Notes under the pieces: model-generated | The model's input: only the letters and a program-made list of their open reading frames with translations | What the model was told of the DNA's origin: nothing | Databases searched by the model: none | In this document: piece by piece, positions 33,998-42,752 of the stretch | How the letters are laid out: each line of letters starts with the position of its first letter | Position numbering within the stretch: position 1 is the first letter of the stretch | From: Marinoscillum sp. | GTDB lineage: Bacteria; Bacteroidota; Bacteroidia; Cytophagales; Cyclobacteriaceae | NCBI GenBank assembly: GCA_024305105.1 | Contig: JAMWZA010000011.1 | Span: forward strand, 1 to 64,000 | DNA: 64,000 nt | Direction of reading: 5' to 3' | Program-made: the position numbers and the translations under genes

Positions 33998-35767
33998 TTG
34001 GAAAACGAAAAGAAGATTAGTGGGAATATCCTGGACGTACAAATCCTGAAAAGGCTCTTTGTATTTGCCCGACCATACATGAAGCAATTCTACCTGGTCA
34101 CCTTTCTGACCATTGCCCTGGCACTACTTACGCCATTGCGACCTAAGTTAATCCAAATGACCATCGACGATCATGTAGCCTACAATGATTATCAGGGGTT
34201 GGTGAAGTGGGTGATTATTTTGATCGTGCTGTTGGTGGTTCAAGCCATCGTCCAGTACTACCATACCTTCATGTCCAACTGGCTCGGACAATACATCATC
34301 AAAGACATTCGGATCAAGCTATTCAAACATATCCAGGCTCTGCGGTTAAAGTTTTTTGACAATACGCCAATCGGGAGACTTGTAACGAGGAATGTTTCAG
34401 ATATCGAAACGTTATCAGAAGTATTTAGTACAGGTGTAGCAGGTATTATCGCTGATATTCTTCAGCTCGTAGTAATACTATCCTTTATGTTTTACGAGAG
34501 CTGGCAATTATCACTGGTTAGCCTTTCGCTCTTGCCAATCTTGCTTTTTGCAACTTATATTTTCAAAGAAAAAGTGAAGGTTTCGTTCAATGAAGTTCGA
34601 ACGGCTGTATCCAATCTGAATGCGTTCGTACAGGAGCACATCACAGGAATGAACATCGTTCAAATCTTCAACGCTGAACGGCGGGAACATGAAAAGTTTA
34701 AAGAAATCAATCGCGAACATCGCCGGGCGAATATTCGGGCAGTTTTTTACTATGCCACCTATTTTCCAGTAGCTGAAATCATTCAGGCTGCTGGTATCGG
34801 TCTGGTCATTTGGTACGGAGCTGGTGGAGTGATTCGAGAGGAATTGACACTTGGAGTGCTGATTGCCTTCATCATGTACATTCAGATGTTTTTCCGTCCG
34901 ATTCGCATGATCGCCGACCGCTTTAACACCTTACAGATGGGCATAGTGGCCTCCAACAGGATCCTCGATCTCATGGATAGTGATGAGCACATTCCTGACA
35001 ATGGTGATTTCGCACCAGAGCAAATACAAGGTGCCGTAAAATTTGATAAAGTCTGGTTTGCCTACAACGAAGAAGACTGGGTACTCAAAGACATCAATTT
35101 CCAAGTACAAAAAGGGCAGGCACTTGCGCTGGTAGGTGCCACCGGGGCAGGAAAGTCTTCGGTGATCAACTTACTCACCCGGTCCTATGAAATCAATAAA
35201 GGATCGATCAGCATCGATGATCGTGATGTGAAGGAATATGAATTGTCTAACCTGAGAAAACATGTTTCGGTGGTTCTACAGGACGTTTTCCTTTTTTCAG
35301 ATACTATTTACAACAACATCACCCTTCGCAATCCAGACATCAGCAAAGAGAAAGTGGTAGAAGCTGCTGATATGGTTGGTGCTAAGACGTTCATAGAAAA
35401 ACTACCCGGCGGATTTGATTACAATGTCATGGAGCGTGGATCCACCCTTTCTGTAGGGCAGCGGCAATTGATCTCCTTCGTTCGTGCCATGGTCTACGAT
35501 CCGAAAATCATCGTTCTGGATGAAGCAACGAGTTCAGTGGATACGGAAACCGAAGAGTTGATTCAGGATGCGATCCAAAAACTGATGAAGGGTCGTACGT
35601 CCATCGTGATCGCTCATAGGCTGTCAACTATTCAAAATGCCGATAAGATCCTAGTACTTGACAAAGGAGAAATTGTAGAAGAAGGCACTCACGACAGCCT
35701 ACTTGATTTAGAAGGCTATTATGCCCAACTTCACCAAATGCAATACAAAGAAGTAGCAACCTCATGA
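33998..35767 (+). CDS. ABC exporter (ATP-binding/permease half-transporter)
   Basis: Walker A GATGAGKSS, signature STLSVGQRQL, Walker B IIVLDEATSSVD; 6TM domain. Confidence 0.95.
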   Translation: MENEKKISGNILDVQILKRLFVFARPYMKQFYLVTFLTIALALLTPLRPKLIQMTIDDHVAYNDYQGLVKWVIILIVLLVVQAIVQYYHTFMSNWLGQYIIKDIRIKLFKHIQALRLKFFDNTPIGRLVTRNVSDIETLSEVFSTGVAGIIADILQLVVILSFMFYESWQLSLVSLSLLPILLFATYIFKEKVKVSFNEVRTAVSNLNAFVQEHITGMNIVQIFNAERREHEKFKEINREHRRANIRAVFYYATYFPVAEIIQAAGIGLVIWYGAGGVIREELTLGVLIAFIMYIQMFFRPIRMIADRFNTLQMGIVASNRILDLMDSDEHIPDNGDFAPEQIQGAVKFDKVWFAYNEEDWVLKDINFQVQKGQALALVGATGAGKSSVINLLTRSYEINKGSISIDDRDVKEYELSNLRKHVSVVLQDVFLFSDTIYNNITLRNPDISKEKVVEAADMVGAKTFIEKLPGGFDYNVMERGSTLSVGQRQLISFVRAMVYDPKIIVLDEATSSVDTETEELIQDAIQKLMKGRTSIVIAHRLSTIQNADKILVLDKGEIVEEGTHDSLLDLEGYYAQLHQMQYKEVATS

Positions 35768-36309
35768 AAATAAAGTGGCAACGCATCGCTTATTTGATGC
35801 TGATTATTGTATTTCTTGGAGCCATTTTCACCTCTGTTTACTACCTACTCGGAGGCTTTGAGCCAATTGAAATCTATCGAATAGTCGATGGGAAGCGAAT
35901 CGTGGTTGGAAAACAATTCAACACCATGGTCAGCAACGACGAACCTAGAGTCTTTTTCGAAAAATGCCAGGACATGCTGGAAGCAGACAATATCGATGGG
36001 AAACTCACTGTCATCTCTTACGCCAATGACACCCTACAGCGGGGTGAAATTGCACAGTTCATTGGGATCGAATTAAACGGTGACATGGCTGAAATCCCCA
36101 GAAAATTTGAAGTACTGGAACTAAACTCCGCTGTTTATTACAAGATGTTTTTAACCATGCACCCATTGGTTCATCCACGCACTATAAATCACCTGACCAT
36201 GCTACAGGAAGAGGCCAATAAAAACAATGAAAAGCTAATAGGACATTTACTTACGACATTCTATCCTGATAACTCCAAAGTAGCTGAGAGTTGGGTGGCT
36301 GATTACTGA
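35764..36309 (+). CDS. Hypothetical membrane-anchored protein
   Basis: 181 aa with N-terminal TM; 4-nt overlap with upstream ABC gene. Confidence 0.7.
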   Translation: MKIKWQRIAYLMLIIVFLGAIFTSVYYLLGGFEPIEIYRIVDGKRIVVGKQFNTMVSNDEPRVFFEKCQDMLEADNIDGKLTVISYANDTLQRGEIAQFIGIELNGDMAEIPRKFEVLELNSAVYYKMFLTMHPLVHPRTINHLTMLQEEANKNNEKLIGHLLTTFYPDNSKVAESWVADY

Positions 36310-36346
36310 ATAGTTCGTAACGCCCAAAAATGAGTATGCCGTTTAT

Positions 36347-38287
36347 TTATTTGGGTATGTTTTTTAGGCTATGATTTTCTTTGGTATAGAATTCACCAAC
36401 TACCATATCAGAAGAATTGAGTTCTTCTGTTATATAGGATGTTGTGTAAAGCATTTGATAACTAGACCTATCATAAGCACCTACTCTATCAATTAGTAGT
36501 TTTTGTAGATTTTGAGCTCTTTTCATTTCAATACCTTTATCTTCCATATTGTCGGCAAAAATGAATCTTGGAAACCTCATATTGTCAATATGTAGGGATG
36601 CCAAGAAAACAGAAAATCGAGCTGATACTTTTAGGTAGAAATTAGAACTCGCCGAATATTTTGAGAATTTATTCGAAAGAAAAGTCAAGTTATTGGAATA
36701 GTCAATGAAAAAGTCACTGGCGTTTTTAAACTCATCTTGTCGATCTAGATCATGATTTAGGAGATAAACTCCTTCTTCTCGAACCTTTGCATTTATGTCA
36801 GCTTTAAGCTTCAATTGGGCTTGTTCGGTTCTATACACGTAGCTATTTAAGTATTCTACCTCTCGTTTTAGTTGATCCCTTTTTTCCAATAGTCTATTGT
36901 AAAGTTCTGCCTTCTCCAACATTGTTCGATACTGAAGAATCTCCCCCTCTATAAATCCTTTCTGGATATTTAATTCATCAATCTTTTCTTCATTGAATGA
37001 TTTCACATCTTCAAGAGCTTGATTGACTTTATTCTGGATGTCGTGCAACTTACCTACCTCGGCACTATACTTAGATTCTACTTCAATCAATTGTCTTTTA
37101 TTGATTTCCATTAGTTTTTGTGACTCTGCTATCTGGAATCCGATTTCAAGTTCCATTCGTTTGGCCTGAACTACTCCAAAAGATTCATCAATTGGTTCTT
37201 TACATAGTTTGCAATTAGCTCCAGATTCGGCAGAATTTATTTTTGTTAAACACTCAGGACAGTAATCTAAAGGAAGATTACCTAGAAATTCCCTAGTTTG
37301 AACTGAATTCCTAAGTGCCTTAATTTTGCGATTAATTGCATCAATAAAGTATTGTGAATCATTAATTTCATGATTTAATCGTGCAATCTCTTCATTTAAA
37401 ATCGTAACCTTTTTCCTCTGTTGAATAGAATCATCATTCAGCTTTTGAAATAGCAGTTGAGAATCCTCTTTATATTCATTTGCTCTTTCTTTAGATCTTA
37501 AAACGACAATTGCCTCTTGAATTTTTTGCAATTCTTTTTCTCTATTATCAATTGTTGTAATAAGATGGGAAGGATTAAGGGATAGTGGGTCTGTGAAAAA
37601 CTGAGATGTGGCCTTTATCTCGCTTTTTACTGAATCAAGTTCTTTTTGGGCAGAGATCAATCGCTTTTTATTCTCATATAGCTCCTCATTATAAACTCCT
37701 AACAATAAATCAGAAACCGTTTCTCTTGTCAATTGACTGTCAAAATGCTCATAGTAGAATAGTGAGTTCGTAGGAGATTCTTGGTCGATGTATAGCAACC
37801 TCAAAATCTGATGAAATGTAATGTTGTTATCTCCCTTAACGATTGGCAAATTTAAATTGTCAAACAGTACATTAGAGAAACTCTTCCTATTTTCTGTTGT
37901 TTTATATCCGAACCTTTGCCAAGATTTTCCTTCTGGGGGTTTGAAACTTTCGTCCATTGAGCCCCAAAATATATTTAATGGAGCCTGGGTGCTGATATTG
38001 CCCTCATCATCTTTTTGGAGTTCTCGCCTAATAGTGAAAAGTGTACCACTCATTTCTACTTCAGCAGATACCTCAGAGCATTTCCTAGCCTCTGGTACAA
38101 AATCGTTAAATGCACCCCCAAGTACAAAAAAGATGAAATGTGTTATGGTTGATTTTCCACTGCTGTTTTCTCCGCGAATGATATTCACCCCTCTATGAAA
38201 TAGTTCATCAAAAGCTGTTTTACCATCCTCAGTTAGTATAAAAAGTCGATTTAGAAAAAGTTGGTTACGCATCGTATTTACTTTCAA
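36347..38287 (-). CDS. SMC/Rad50-like ABC ATPase, candidate ABC-3C system ATPase
   Basis: Walker A GENSSGKSTI; coiled coil with CPEC...CKLC; degenerate signature SASSNFYLKVSA; Walker B-like RFPRFIFADNMEDKG. Confidence 0.8.
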   Translation of the reverse strand: MKVNTMRNQLFLNRLFILTEDGKTAFDELFHRGVNIIRGENSSGKSTITHFIFFVLGGAFNDFVPEARKCSEVSAEVEMSGTLFTIRRELQKDDEGNISTQAPLNIFWGSMDESFKPPEGKSWQRFGYKTTENRKSFSNVLFDNLNLPIVKGDNNITFHQILRLLYIDQESPTNSLFYYEHFDSQLTRETVSDLLLGVYNEELYENKKRLISAQKELDSVKSEIKATSQFFTDPLSLNPSHLITTIDNREKELQKIQEAIVVLRSKERANEYKEDSQLLFQKLNDDSIQQRKKVTILNEEIARLNHEINDSQYFIDAINRKIKALRNSVQTREFLGNLPLDYCPECLTKINSAESGANCKLCKEPIDESFGVVQAKRMELEIGFQIAESQKLMEINKRQLIEVESKYSAEVGKLHDIQNKVNQALEDVKSFNEEKIDELNIQKGFIEGEILQYRTMLEKAELYNRLLEKRDQLKREVEYLNSYVYRTEQAQLKLKADINAKVREEGVYLLNHDLDRQDEFKNASDFFIDYSNNLTFLSNKFSKYSASSNFYLKVSARFSVFLASLHIDNMRFPRFIFADNMEDKGIEMKRAQNLQKLLIDRVGAYDRSSYQMLYTTSYITEELNSSDMVVGEFYTKENHSLKNIPK

Positions 38288-38783
38288 CTAGGTCTGTTCT
38301 GTTTTTTAGTCCCTCAGTCCCAAAAAGAGACATCATATAGAAATGAGATGTCATCAATGCGACCGTGTTTCTTTCTTTGGGAGTTAATTCTTCGAAGTTT
38401 TCTACAAATTGATTTAAAATTGATTTGTTTATAATTTTTACTTGTTGCTCGGACAATGACAGCTTGTCGATTATGCCATATGATGCCAAACAATTTAATG
38501 CAGCCAATTGATAAGGTCTTATCTTTTCAAAAATCTTTCTGTTCTCGGTAATCAGTTCATACGGATTGTTTGAGTCTTTGATAAATTGTTTTCTTAGCTT
38601 TCGTATATCGGCCTCATCTCGTTTAAGACGGATCTCTTTTATTTTGTTTGGGAATAAAAAATAGAAATCCCAAATTCTGATTCTTTCTGTTTCAATTGTA
38701 CTTCCGTCATCAAACTTTTTCAATAGATGAATTATTCTAAATATCGAATGGTATAAATCGAATGCTTGATTATATACTATCAT
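38265..38783 (-). CDS. Candidate ABC-3C middle-component-like protein
   Basis: AFDLYHSIFRIIHLLKK....IETERIRIWDFYFLFPNKIKEIRL...KIFEKIRPYQLAALNCLASYGIID; overlaps the ATPase gene by 23 nt. Confidence 0.65.
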   Translation of the reverse strand: MIVYNQAFDLYHSIFRIIHLLKKFDDGSTIETERIRIWDFYFLFPNKIKEIRLKRDEADIRKLRKQFIKDSNNPYELITENRKIFEKIRPYQLAALNCLASYGIIDKLSLSEQQVKIINKSILNQFVENFEELTPKERNTVALMTSHFYMMSLFGTEGLKNRTDLVESKYDA

Positions 38784-39348
38784 AGTTTTTCCAATTTATG
38801 TGACACTTACCGGTTAAGAAGTAGATCATTCCATATATATCTTCAGTTGAGTAGTTGAGATAAGTATCATGTTCTCCTTCCTCATTAATCAAATTGAGGG
38901 TCGGTCCAATTACTTTCTCTAATACGTTTTTAAAAATTTCACCTTTTTTTGAACCGATATTTATTAATGGCTCAATATGTGTTTCGAAATCAATAATAAG
39001 TTTTGCGAAAATTTCACTATCAATTACTTGGGCTGATTCATAAAATCTATTTAACTCTAGTTGCTTTGCATATTTCTCTTTTCTTCGAAGTGCTCTGATA
39101 ATTTCTCTTTCAGTTAACCCTCCATCTGATAGCTTTACCTCTACTTCAACTCCATCTAGCTTTGTCAAATAATACTTCAGAGCTTCCATGACGCCCTCAT
39201 ATCTTTCATTTGAGGCAACCTCTTGTTTTAGTTTTTCAAATCTTGCTGAAAGCCTTGACCTATTTTGTAAATAGATTGCGCCGGAATTATCCTGAACAAC
39301 GACTTGCCTATCTATTTTTCCTTCATTTGTAATTTTTTGAGCCATCAC
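38770..39348 (-). CDS. Candidate ABC-3C CTD-like protein with N-terminal repeat motif
   Basis: C-terminal SEIFAKLIIDFETHIEPLINIGSKKGEIFKNVLEKVIGPTLNLI...YSTEDIYGMIYFLTGKCHINWKNY; N-terminal KITNEGKIDRQVVVQDNSGAIYLQN. Confidence 0.65.
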   Translation of the reverse strand: MMAQKITNEGKIDRQVVVQDNSGAIYLQNRSRLSARFEKLKQEVASNERYEGVMEALKYYLTKLDGVEVEVKLSDGGLTEREIIRALRRKEKYAKQLELNRFYESAQVIDSEIFAKLIIDFETHIEPLINIGSKKGEIFKNVLEKVIGPTLNLINEEGEHDTYLNYSTEDIYGMIYFLTGKCHINWKNYDSI

Positions 39349-39626
39349 ATTTCAATTTTTCCACTATTGTTTTGAACGTTGACTTGTTTCTTGATTTTTC
39401 CATTATTGGTAATATTCTGCTCGTTCTTAACCTCAGTATTCAAGTCATCAGATTCTCTAGATGATACAGCTTTTATAACCAAATACCCAATTACTTCAAT
39501 CAACGAGACAGTCGTTAATATTATAGGTTCTTCTTCCCAGTTAGAATTTACAGCCCAAATTGAGCCACCCACAACCCCAATTAGAGCTATAATGAAAGTC
39601 TTAATATTTGTGATGAGTGATTTCAT
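39345..39626 (-). CDS. Small 2-TM protein with C-terminal repeat motif (candidate membrane effector)
   Basis: TM stretches IKTFIIALIGVVGGSIWAV and IILTTVSLIEVIGYLVIKAV; C-terminal NITNNGKIKKQVNVQNNSGKIEM; 4-nt overlap with next gene. Confidence 0.7.
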   Translation of the reverse strand: MKSLITNIKTFIIALIGVVGGSIWAVNSNWEEEPIILTTVSLIEVIGYLVIKAVSSRESDDLNTEVKNEQNITNNGKIKKQVNVQNNSGKIEM

Positions 39627-39763
39627 CTTTAATTACGTTATGGCATACAGCGTTCATATAAAATGAGTATGCGTCCAAGTTGCTAAGAGCATTGAGTCTC
39701 CTGGTTTGTAATGTCTTATCAAATGGCTCAGAACGCATATTCATTTGAGTTTGTTGGCAATAG

Positions 39764-40744
39764 TTATTTCGTTAATATCTCTTTCAAGAATTCAGCTGTC
39801 AGTTTAAGTGTGTTTTGTTGTTCTGGATCTAAATTATCAGAAGAAAAATGCATGACATCATTTCTTATACCCCTCACTTCAACCAGTTTTTTCGTAAACT
39901 CATCTTTATCTAGAGGAATTTTGATTTTGGACCAATTATCTCCTTTTCTCATAAGTTCTATGTACTCATTGAAAGTTAAATCAGAAACCGAATCAATTGG
40001 TCTATCGTCATCACCATGTTTAATCTCTTTCAGTTCTTCCGCAGTAAATTTATCTTCTAGTAAGACCCTGATGCTTGTTTCAATCTGTCCGATTAGTAAG
40101 AATGGCTCAGCAAGTTCAAAAAATTCGTCAGCAATATCTGTAACTGTTAAAAGACCTGAAATTGATTGATTAATTTTTTGAACTAATACAACTTCATTTT
40201 CTTTGATAATGTGAATTGCCTCTAAAATCGGTGTGTCGTATGATATGATTGTACAATCTTTTTTCATGCAATCCTGAACTCTTTCAACGTTCTTTCCCTT
40301 CGCAGTTGTCCAACCGATTGAATGCCAGCTTATCATTCCGTCAACACGTTTAGAGTTGGGGTCATTCATTACAGGTAATTGAGAAAAATCATTAGACATC
40401 ATTAAAGTCATTGCTTTCTCAATTGAATCATTTTTAGATACCGACTTAGGAACTCTATTCGCTGCATCAAGAAGCCTGACTCTCTGAACAAAATCTTCCT
40501 GCTCCGTGGCATCTTTTTCTCTTTTTAGTGATATCTCGCCATACAAATACGCTGTTTTGTAATCAGGTTCGGTTTTTATTTTGAGTTCACGAAGACCTTT
40601 GTCAATCCACCATTTTACATGAGTTTTTCTTCTACTTGTTCCAAAATGTTCAAGCAGCTTCTTTGGACTTATCTTTATCGCTTTTCCGTCCTTATTTATT
40701 TGTTTGGCGAGTTGCGTTATTTCATTGTCTGGTAAATATGCCAT
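39764..40744 (-). CDS. CBS-domain-pair protein with C-terminal HEPN-like (Swt1-like) domain
   Basis: Two CBS-like units (RVPKSVSKNDSIEKAMTLMMSNDFSQLPVMND...; CTIISYDTPILEAIHIIKENEVVLVQ...GLLTVTDIADEF) and C-terminal VEVRGIRNDVMHFSSDNLDPEQQNTLKLTAEFLKEI with an RNxxxH motif. Confidence 0.75.
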   Translation of the reverse strand: MAYLPDNEITQLAKQINKDGKAIKISPKKLLEHFGTSRRKTHVKWWIDKGLRELKIKTEPDYKTAYLYGEISLKREKDATEQEDFVQRVRLLDAANRVPKSVSKNDSIEKAMTLMMSNDFSQLPVMNDPNSKRVDGMISWHSIGWTTAKGKNVERVQDCMKKDCTIISYDTPILEAIHIIKENEVVLVQKINQSISGLLTVTDIADEFFELAEPFLLIGQIETSIRVLLEDKFTAEELKEIKHGDDDRPIDSVSDLTFNEYIELMRKGDNWSKIKIPLDKDEFTKKLVEVRGIRNDVMHFSSDNLDPEQQNTLKLTAEFLKEILTK

Positions 40745-40958
40745 TCAGTATTTCTAATTATTGCCAACAACAGTGCAACAGGCACTGCCATCCTAATCTA
40801 CGAAAAATCGCATTAAACGAACAGAACACCAAACTGAAGCCCATAAAAACACATTTTTATAAGTACTTATAGTCGGCTGTAAGCACTTATAGCTTGTTAA
40901 GTTCTAGGTTCGCTGCTTATACTTCTGGCGTGTGCCACTGATTTCTGGAGAATCTTCT

Positions 40959-42752
40959 CTAATAAACTTCTTCTTCGCTCTCGCTCTGTAGCTGTTTGTC
41001 GTGGAGTTCTTTATAAGCGCCATTTCTAGTTATCAAATCATCGTGCGTTCCAGCTTCTAATACGTATCCATCATCCAGCATGATGACTTTATCCGCCAAC
41101 TTGGCTGAGGAGACTCGATGTGAAATGATCACCGACGTTCGGCCTTTCATTATGCGAGCCATGGCATTCAGGATGGCATTCTCTGTTTTGGTATCTACCG
41201 CAGACAAGGCATCGTCCAAAATAAGGATCTTGGGTTCTCTGGCAATGGCTCTGGCGATAGAGACTCGCTGCTTCTGACCACCAGACAAGGTAATGCCTCG
41301 TTCACCTACTCGGGTGTCAAATCCATTCGGAAAACGATCTATGTTCTCCAACAGGTCCGCATCAGCTGCCGCCTTCTTGATCTCCTCGAAGGTCATCTCA
41401 TCTCTACCAAAAGCAATGTTGCCCTTGACCGTATCAGAGAAAAGGAACACATCCTGAGGCACATAGCCAATCTGACTTCTCACCGTGCTCAGGTTGTATT
41501 TTTTAATATCGTTCGCATCGATTTGAAGAGATCCTGCGCTCACATCATACATGCGACAAATCAGATTAGCGATAGTACTCTTTCCCGAACCAGTTGTTCC
41601 GATGATGGCAATTGATTCTCCAGGCTTGACTTCAAAGGTCACATTCTTCAATGCCTGAATTCCAGAATCGGGATAAGTAAACGAAACATCATTGAATTCT
41701 ATATGGCCCTGAATATCAGCCGTAATATTTTCTTCTGAGACAATCTCGCTTTTAGTGTTCAGGAATTCGTTGATACGCTTTTGAGAAGCCGCTGCGCGCT
41801 GAATGATACTGGTAATCCATCCGAGAGATGTCACCGGCCAGGTAAGCATGTTGACATAGATGATAAACTCCGCAATCACACCCGTACTAATCGCTCCTTC
41901 AAATACCTCTACCGAACCGATATAGACTGTAAAAATGACACTAAGACCTATCAAACCCATGATAAGCGGAAAAAAGAGTGCCTGCACGAACGCCAACCCA
42001 AGCGATTTATGCTTATAGTCTTCGCTGGCCTTATCAAAATGGTTCTCCATATCTTCCTCTCGTACAAAGGATTTGATGACACGAATTCCTGAAAACGCCT
42101 CTTGCACGAAAGTTGACAATCCGGAAAGGCTTTGTTGTATCTCCTCCGACCGCTTATTGATAATGTTATTGACGAAATAAATGCTGATGGAAAGCAAAGG
42201 CAGCGGAATCAATGAATAAAGAGTCAGCCGAGGGTTAATGGAAAACATGAAAGGAATCACCATGAAAAACAAAGTGAAAAGGTTGATGCCGTACATGATG
42301 GCTGGCCCCACATACATCCTGACTTTGCTCACATCCTCCGAGATTCTGGCCATTAAGTCTCCCGTATTGTTCTTCCGGTAAAAACTCAGTGGCAGGGATT
42401 GGTAATGCTCATAGACCTCATTCTTCAAGTCATACTCCACTCTTCTGGACATCACAATGATGGTCTGTCTCATAAAAAACATGAACACTCCTTTGAGTAA
42501 TGCGGACACCAAAATCATCAATCCAAGGATCAAAATACTCTGGGCGAACACCGAATAGGTCGACTCCTGAAGGTCAAATCCACTAAAAGCCTGAAATATA
42601 TCGTAGCTGCGCTGCAGAAGATCAAAAGAATATCTTACAACCACAGCTGGCACAATGCCAAAGAAATTGGAGATGATGATGAAAATCGTCCCAAGAATCA
42701 AATGCCATTTATATTTCCGGAAGTATTTATTGAGATGAGCTAAGTCTTTCAC
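40959..42752 (-). CDS. ABC exporter (ATP-binding/permease half-transporter)
   Basis: Walker A GTTGSGKST, signature ITLSGGQKQRVSIARAIAREPKILILDDALSAVD. Confidence 0.95.
   Translation of the reverse strand: MKDLAHLNKYFRKYKWHLILGTIFIIISNFFGIVPAVVVRYSFDLLQRSYDIFQAFSGFDLQESTYSVFAQSILILGLMILVSALLKGVFMFFMRQTIIVMSRRVEYDLKNEVYEHYQSLPLSFYRKNNTGDLMARISEDVSKVRMYVGPAIMYGINLFTLFFMVIPFMFSINPRLTLYSLIPLPLLSISIYFVNNIINKRSEEIQQSLSGLSTFVQEAFSGIRVIKSFVREEDMENHFDKASEDYKHKSLGLAFVQALFFPLIMGLIGLSVIFTVYIGSVEVFEGAISTGVIAEFIIYVNMLTWPVTSLGWITSIIQRAAASQKRINEFLNTKSEIVSEENITADIQGHIEFNDVSFTYPDSGIQALKNVTFEVKPGESIAIIGTTGSGKSTIANLICRMYDVSAGSLQIDANDIKKYNLSTVRSQIGYVPQDVFLFSDTVKGNIAFGRDEMTFEEIKKAAADADLLENIDRFPNGFDTRVGERGITLSGGQKQRVSIARAIAREPKILILDDALSAVDTKTENAILNAMARIMKGRTSVIISHRVSSAKLADKVIMLDDGYVLEAGTHDDLITRNGAYKELHDKQLQSESEEEVY

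Follow-up and report, generated by a model that had tools for sequence, protein, structure and literature searches.

In 2026, the DefensePredictor paper described DS-11, a system of one protein that combines CBS and HEPN domains and protects E. coli against phage (PMC13092281). AlphaFold3 placed ATP against Y157 of this protein, and defence was abolished by the substitution Y157A as well as by mutations of the HEPN catalytic residues (PMC13092281). The parts of the DS-11 description available to us contained no RNase assay (PMC13092281).

In the present study, we analysed a stretch of 64,000 nucleotides (the window) from Marinoscillum sp., which corresponds to positions 1-64,000 of the forward strand of contig JAMWZA010000011.1 in assembly GCA_024305105.1. 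An intact open reading frame (ORF) on the minus strand at 39764-40744 encodes a protein of 326 amino acid residues, referred to below as the CBS-HEPN protein. We found that its gene is an ordinary member of the recently described defence family DS-11. The family itself is already known, and our analysis extends it to a Bacteroidota genome.

The protein gave 336.2 bits against the NCBIfam model NF053863 (DS11_antiphage; cut-off 260, E 1.5e-100), and the match covered residues 28-320 and positions 1-305 of the model, which is its whole length. All 82 aligned relatives also matched the model. Because the match is of full length with this E-value and the R/H motif described below is invariant across at least ten phyla, the similarity to DS-11 is not due to chance. 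The homologous ORF from E. coli (L032:9953-11050) is carried by 127 of 5426 complete E. coli genomes at 99% or more, and its product is about 36% identical to the Marinoscillum protein. Residue 157 of this product is Y and aligns with F120. The residue number and the family model, not an accession, lead us to infer that it represents DS-11 itself or an almost identical allele.

The CBS-HEPN protein was modelled with AlphaFold2 on an alignment of 79 sequences (pLDDT 94). In the model, a winged helix-turn-helix (wHTH)-like part is followed by the CBS pair and then, from residue 201, exclusively by helices, in agreement with the domains named in the original prediction. The N-terminal domain (residues about 7-75; 40520-40726, minus strand) shows the order of a winged helix (H7-19, E23-25, H27-33, H41-53, E56-59, E71-75), which bears out the expected wHTH-like N-terminus, and profiles of HTH families gave no match to it. 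A role for this domain in the protein is presumed. R39, which lies in the domain, is kept in 85 of 89 sequences, and the remaining sequences have gaps there. The two expected CBS-like repeats (residues about 96-208; 40121-40459, minus strand) were recovered as two stretches by the Pfam CBS profile, with 50.7 bits against a cut-off of 24. Foldseek against the PDB found the CBS fold significantly (E 3.4e-8), and the matches included DarB and OpuCA with c-di-AMP and MtCorB with ATP. A viral fold library gave CBS matches and nothing else. The second CBS domain (CBS2) contains G197-L-L-T200-V-T-D203; G-x-x-T-x-x-D is the pattern by which CBS domains bind ribose and phosphate. The C-terminal, HEPN-like helical domain (residues about 209-326; 39767-40120, minus strand) carries RNDVMH at residues 294-299, the putative catalytic Rx4H motif of HEPN domains (R294 and H299), at exactly the predicted position (39848-39865, minus strand).

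In the alignment of 89 sequences, R294, N295, M298, H299, F300, T200, D203, and E222 are invariant (89/89), and G197 is kept in 88. The column of F120 contains F in 50 sequences, Y in 38, and L in one; thus, F or Y occupies it in 88 of the 89. Poor conservation of R294 and H299 among homologs, which would have spoken against the original prediction, was not observed. The value of 89/89 for the motif is biased, because the HEPN motif itself, as the pattern [IV]RNDVMHF, served to retrieve most of the loci. R-N-x-x-M-H-F is kept at each of the 19 loci matching a CBS pattern, and four of them have forms outside the HEPN pattern (RNEVMHF, RNDIMHF, RNNVMHF, and RNNIMHF). Three relatives from a plasmid collection, found by tblastn alone, also keep R-N-x-x-M-H-F, and in the shorter relatives from haloarchaea and Streptomyces R-N-x-x-x-H is preserved. 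This alignment of about 90 relatives points to F/Y at 120, T200, D203, E222, R294, and H299 as the residues of interest.

The HEPN/Swt1-like context proposed for the C-terminus was recovered in part: the Pfam profile HEPN_Swt1 (PF18731) matched residues 248-308, but the score was under the cut-off (15.4 vs 27.5 bits, E 0.023). Among the relatives, 35 of 79 matched this profile at E<0.1, with a best value of 2.1e-5. The C-terminal domain alone had no significant Foldseek match; among the matches listed, the highest probabilities were those of AbiA (0.38) and HepS (0.35), both at E>1. We take AbiA and HepS to be HEPN-containing proteins. The AlphaFold2 model of the C-terminus is an all-helical bundle and does not contradict the original prediction. 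Because the Rx4H motif is invariant and HEPN mutants of DS-11 have been published, the C-terminus is likely a HEPN domain, an assignment based on the motif, the weak profile matches, and the published mutants.

The order of elements at the N-terminus and the conservation of R39 would also suit a DNA-binding regulator, in which the wHTH-like domain is controlled by the CBS pair and the C-terminal domain is purely dimerising and has no nuclease activity. However, conservation in the protein is highest at the R/H motif, Rx4H is kept in shorter relatives without the N-terminus, and the NCBIfam model starts only at residue 28. In addition, HEPN mutants of DS-11 lose defence (PMC13092281). We give hardly any credence to such a regulator and favour a nuclease of the DS-11 type.

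The CBS-HEPN gene lies in an acquired insert of 4.65 kb (36310-40958) between two convergent core genes. Five congeneric genomes have no such insert at the corresponding position. In four of them, the ends of the flanking genes (35764-36309, encoding 181 amino acid residues, and 40959-42752, encoding an ABC transporter) are no more than about 20 bp apart. In the fifth (L139:2616-3090), the site is occupied by a 0.6-kb pair of genes for a toxin of the BrnT type and an antitoxin of the CopG type; on the basis of this pair, the insertion site is an integration hot spot. The GC content is 0.32-0.37 within the insert vs 0.42-0.46 in the flanks. No clean target-site duplication was seen at the insert, and no Rfam match was found within it.

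The remainder of the insert is a second defence-like operon on the minus strand, and the original description of the gene as the neighbour of an ABC-3C-like operon proved correct. The first gene (39345-39626) encodes a membrane protein of 93 amino acid residues with no match over the cut-off in profile searches. It is followed by genes for an ABC-3C CTD9 protein (38770-39348; Pfam CTD9, E 2.5e-28), an ABC-3C middle component, MC5 (38265-38783; Pfam MC5, E 1.4e-42), and an ABC-3C/LmuB-like SMC-type ATPase (36347-38287; AAA_23, E 5.6e-7; LmuB, E 5.2e-38). The membrane protein and the CTD9 protein have a common segment (NITNNGKIKKQVNVQNNSGKI / KITNEGKIDRQVVVQDNSGAI, 68% over 22 residues), which may couple a membrane effector to the ABC-3C complex. 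A motif, (G/C)GCATACTCATTTT, is found on the minus strand directly 3' of the ABC-3C ATPase gene (36327-36340) and 3' of the CBS-HEPN gene (39660-39673). The two ends align better than 200 of 200 shuffles, but elsewhere in the genome the motif occurs in only a small number of dispersed copies.

The arrangement raises the question of whether the CBS-HEPN protein belongs to the ABC-3C operon as a component or regulates it, so that the two form one joint system. The genes share the strand and the insert, the CBS-HEPN gene lies 137 bp upstream of the gene for the 93-residue protein, no terminator-like site was found between the gene and the operon, and the short motif is common to the ends of both units. 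Yet relatives of the four ABC-3C proteins are absent near all the related CBS-HEPN loci, and no neighbour family recurs in at least four of 87 loci (886 neighbouring ORFs), which agrees with the stand-alone, single-gene character of DS-11; the E. coli homologue functions as one protein (PMC13092281). As the linkage is not recurrent among related loci, we rejected a part in the ABC-3C system, and a joint system is very improbable. The operon is most likely an incidental neighbour of the CBS-HEPN gene, not its partner.

The nearest relative, from Pleomorphovibrio marinus of the same bacterial family, is 53-54% identical and lies at a different site, 2 kb from a CBASS pair that consists of a TIR-STING effector and a CD-NTase. 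Because the neighbours are an ABC-3C operon in Marinoscillum and a CBASS pair in P. marinus, the DS-11 gene accompanies defence genes that differ from locus to locus. In the Pleomorphovibrio region (L140:11392-16408), the DS-11 gene also adjoins a gene for a protein of 258 amino acid residues with a weak HEPN match, next to the TIR-STING effector and CD-NTase genes.

The CBS-HEPN protein is sparsely and unevenly distributed: within the class, 2 of 395 genomes encode it, and within the phylum 1 of 396, with its own genome counted in both cases. Relatives were found in at least ten phyla. In genome contigs, a single-protein scan found none, and the relatives were obtained by an alignment-based scan. 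A phage collection contained no relative, and viral contigs contained six. In the maximum-likelihood tree, the Marinoscillum protein groups with that of Pleomorphovibrio (100/100), and both fall in a clade composed mostly of Bacteroidota (100/100); several phyla are split. The split phyla would be compatible with horizontal transfer, a reading limited by bins and paralogues.

Some more distant relatives were also observed. CBS-HEPN proteins of haloarchaeal and Streptomyces plasmids (L035, L192, L193, L194, and L195) are about 27% identical and keep RNxxxH; they are possibly a sister family, whose annotated archaeal cases apparently have no N-terminal domain. Proteins of 254-273 amino acid residues from the same bacterial family as Marinoscillum (L004:1465-1938, minus strand, and weak matches in genomes G024, G025, G030, and G035) match the part of the DS-11 model from CBS2 to HEPN below the cut-off, and the L004 protein has LRDALAH (Rx4H). 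In a Rhodocyclaceae genome (L048:7989-8996), the DS-11 gene is broken by a frameshift or an assembly error, and the motif is found downstream in another frame.

Defence genes are carried by integrons, according to literature cited in PMC12444791; the literature that we searched did not mention DS-11 as one of these genes. At 6 of 90 loci (L042, L043, L046, L054, L058, and L071:7857-9070), GTTRRRY precedes the start and RYYYAAC follows the stop, compared with 0.28 loci expected from shuffles. In the case of Luteimonas arsenica (L054:1953-3070), seven attC-like sites form an array in 7.1 kb, and in Comamonas (L058:5681-7130) a 64-nt attC-like repeat occurs in eight copies. The genomes of L043, L046, L054, L058, and L071 encode an integron integrase that scores 437-484 bits and passes the TIGR02249 cut-off, and one over the cut-off is also present in that of L049, which has cassette-like flanks; for these six, the integrase was scored at the level of the genome, not of the contig with the DS-11 gene. 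In the case of the flavobacterium Winogradskyella (L042:7780-9070), the DS-11 gene has a copy of a 125-bp attC-like repeat on each side, and the genome has no recognised integron integrase; this locus is possibly a non-canonical Bacteroidota integron. Three other loci (L084, L064, and L059) were rejected as cassettes: the direct repeats that flank them do not clearly represent attC, and no integron integrase is present in the respective genomes. The DS-11 family spreads by several routes, integron arrays included.

For the Marinoscillum copy, an integron cassette is not supported: it has no GTTRRRY/RYYYAAC pair, no attC-like site, and no direct repeat upstream and downstream, and no integron integrase above the cut-off was found in the genome. 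A 16-nt inverted repeat, TTGTTGGCAATAATTA, directly flanks the ORF (39751-39766 and 40755-40770), and an equally good one was obtained in 2 of 300 shuffles. The motif GGCATACTCATTTT was rejected as a cassette end; the genome contains a handful of scattered copies, near the control count. It is unlikely that DS-11 genes are cassette-borne defence genes of which the Marinoscillum copy, with its inverted repeat, is a decayed cassette captured by an unrecognised Bacteroidota integron-like system.

Taken as a whole, the CBS-HEPN gene is very probably a DS-11-type, one-gene anti-phage system with a putative nucleotide-gated nuclease, and the Marinoscillum copy is presumably active. The CBS pair would bind an adenine nucleotide, with F120 stacking on the base and the G-x-x-T-x-x-D motif of CBS2 holding the ribose and phosphate. 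The ligand state of the pair would be coupled to the C-terminal HEPN dimer; the bound nucleotide would keep the dimer off (or turn it on). Phage infection would alter the ligand, the R294/H299 site would then cleave RNA, and phage growth would be halted, probably at the expense of the infected cell.

CBS pairs commonly read AMP or ATP, and HEPN toxins also occur outside phage defence; the same domains could therefore make up a general stress or dormancy RNase that tracks the energy state of the cell and is not phage-specific. The patchy distribution and the location in an acquired insert speak against such a function, as does the defence of DS-11 against phage (PMC13092281), and we consider it quite improbable. 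For the anti-phage reading that we prefer, gating and defence rest on the work with E. coli DS-11 (PMC13092281). The idea of a nucleotide-gated RNase acting as an anti-phage effector, already put forward in the original prediction, is sound but no longer new, since it has been proposed in print for DS-11 (PMC13092281), whose family cut-off the Marinoscillum protein passes. Our contributions are the alignment, the empty-site evidence, the rejected linkage with ABC-3C, and the observation of cassettes in relatives. The identity of the ligand would reveal which phage-induced signal a CBS module can read.

Compared with known systems, the neighbouring operon resembles ABC-3C and Lamassu-like systems in its MC5, CTD9, and LmuB-like ATPase, whereas the CBS-HEPN gene is not among their recurrent parts. 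The protein shares a helical domain with an R-x4-H motif with HEPN_Swt1 (PF18731), RnlA, Cas13, Csx1/Csm6, AbiA, and HepS, but gives only sub-threshold profile and structure matches to HEPN RNases. To our knowledge, no CBS regulator is known in HEPN RNases besides DS-11. It has the CBS-pair fold and the G-x-x-T-x-x-D motif in CBS2 in common with the nucleotide sensors DarB/CbpB, OpuCA, MtCorB, and AMPK gamma, which, however, act on enzymes or transporters and not on a HEPN domain of their own chain. From E. coli DS-11 it differs in having F120 in place of Y, a match by chemistry rather than identity, in a two-residue insertion in CBS1 (128-129), and in adjoining ABC-3C, which is not the E. coli setting. 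Both are single proteins in which a CBS pair is followed by a HEPN-like domain, with the RNDVMH motif and an aromatic residue at the position of Y157.
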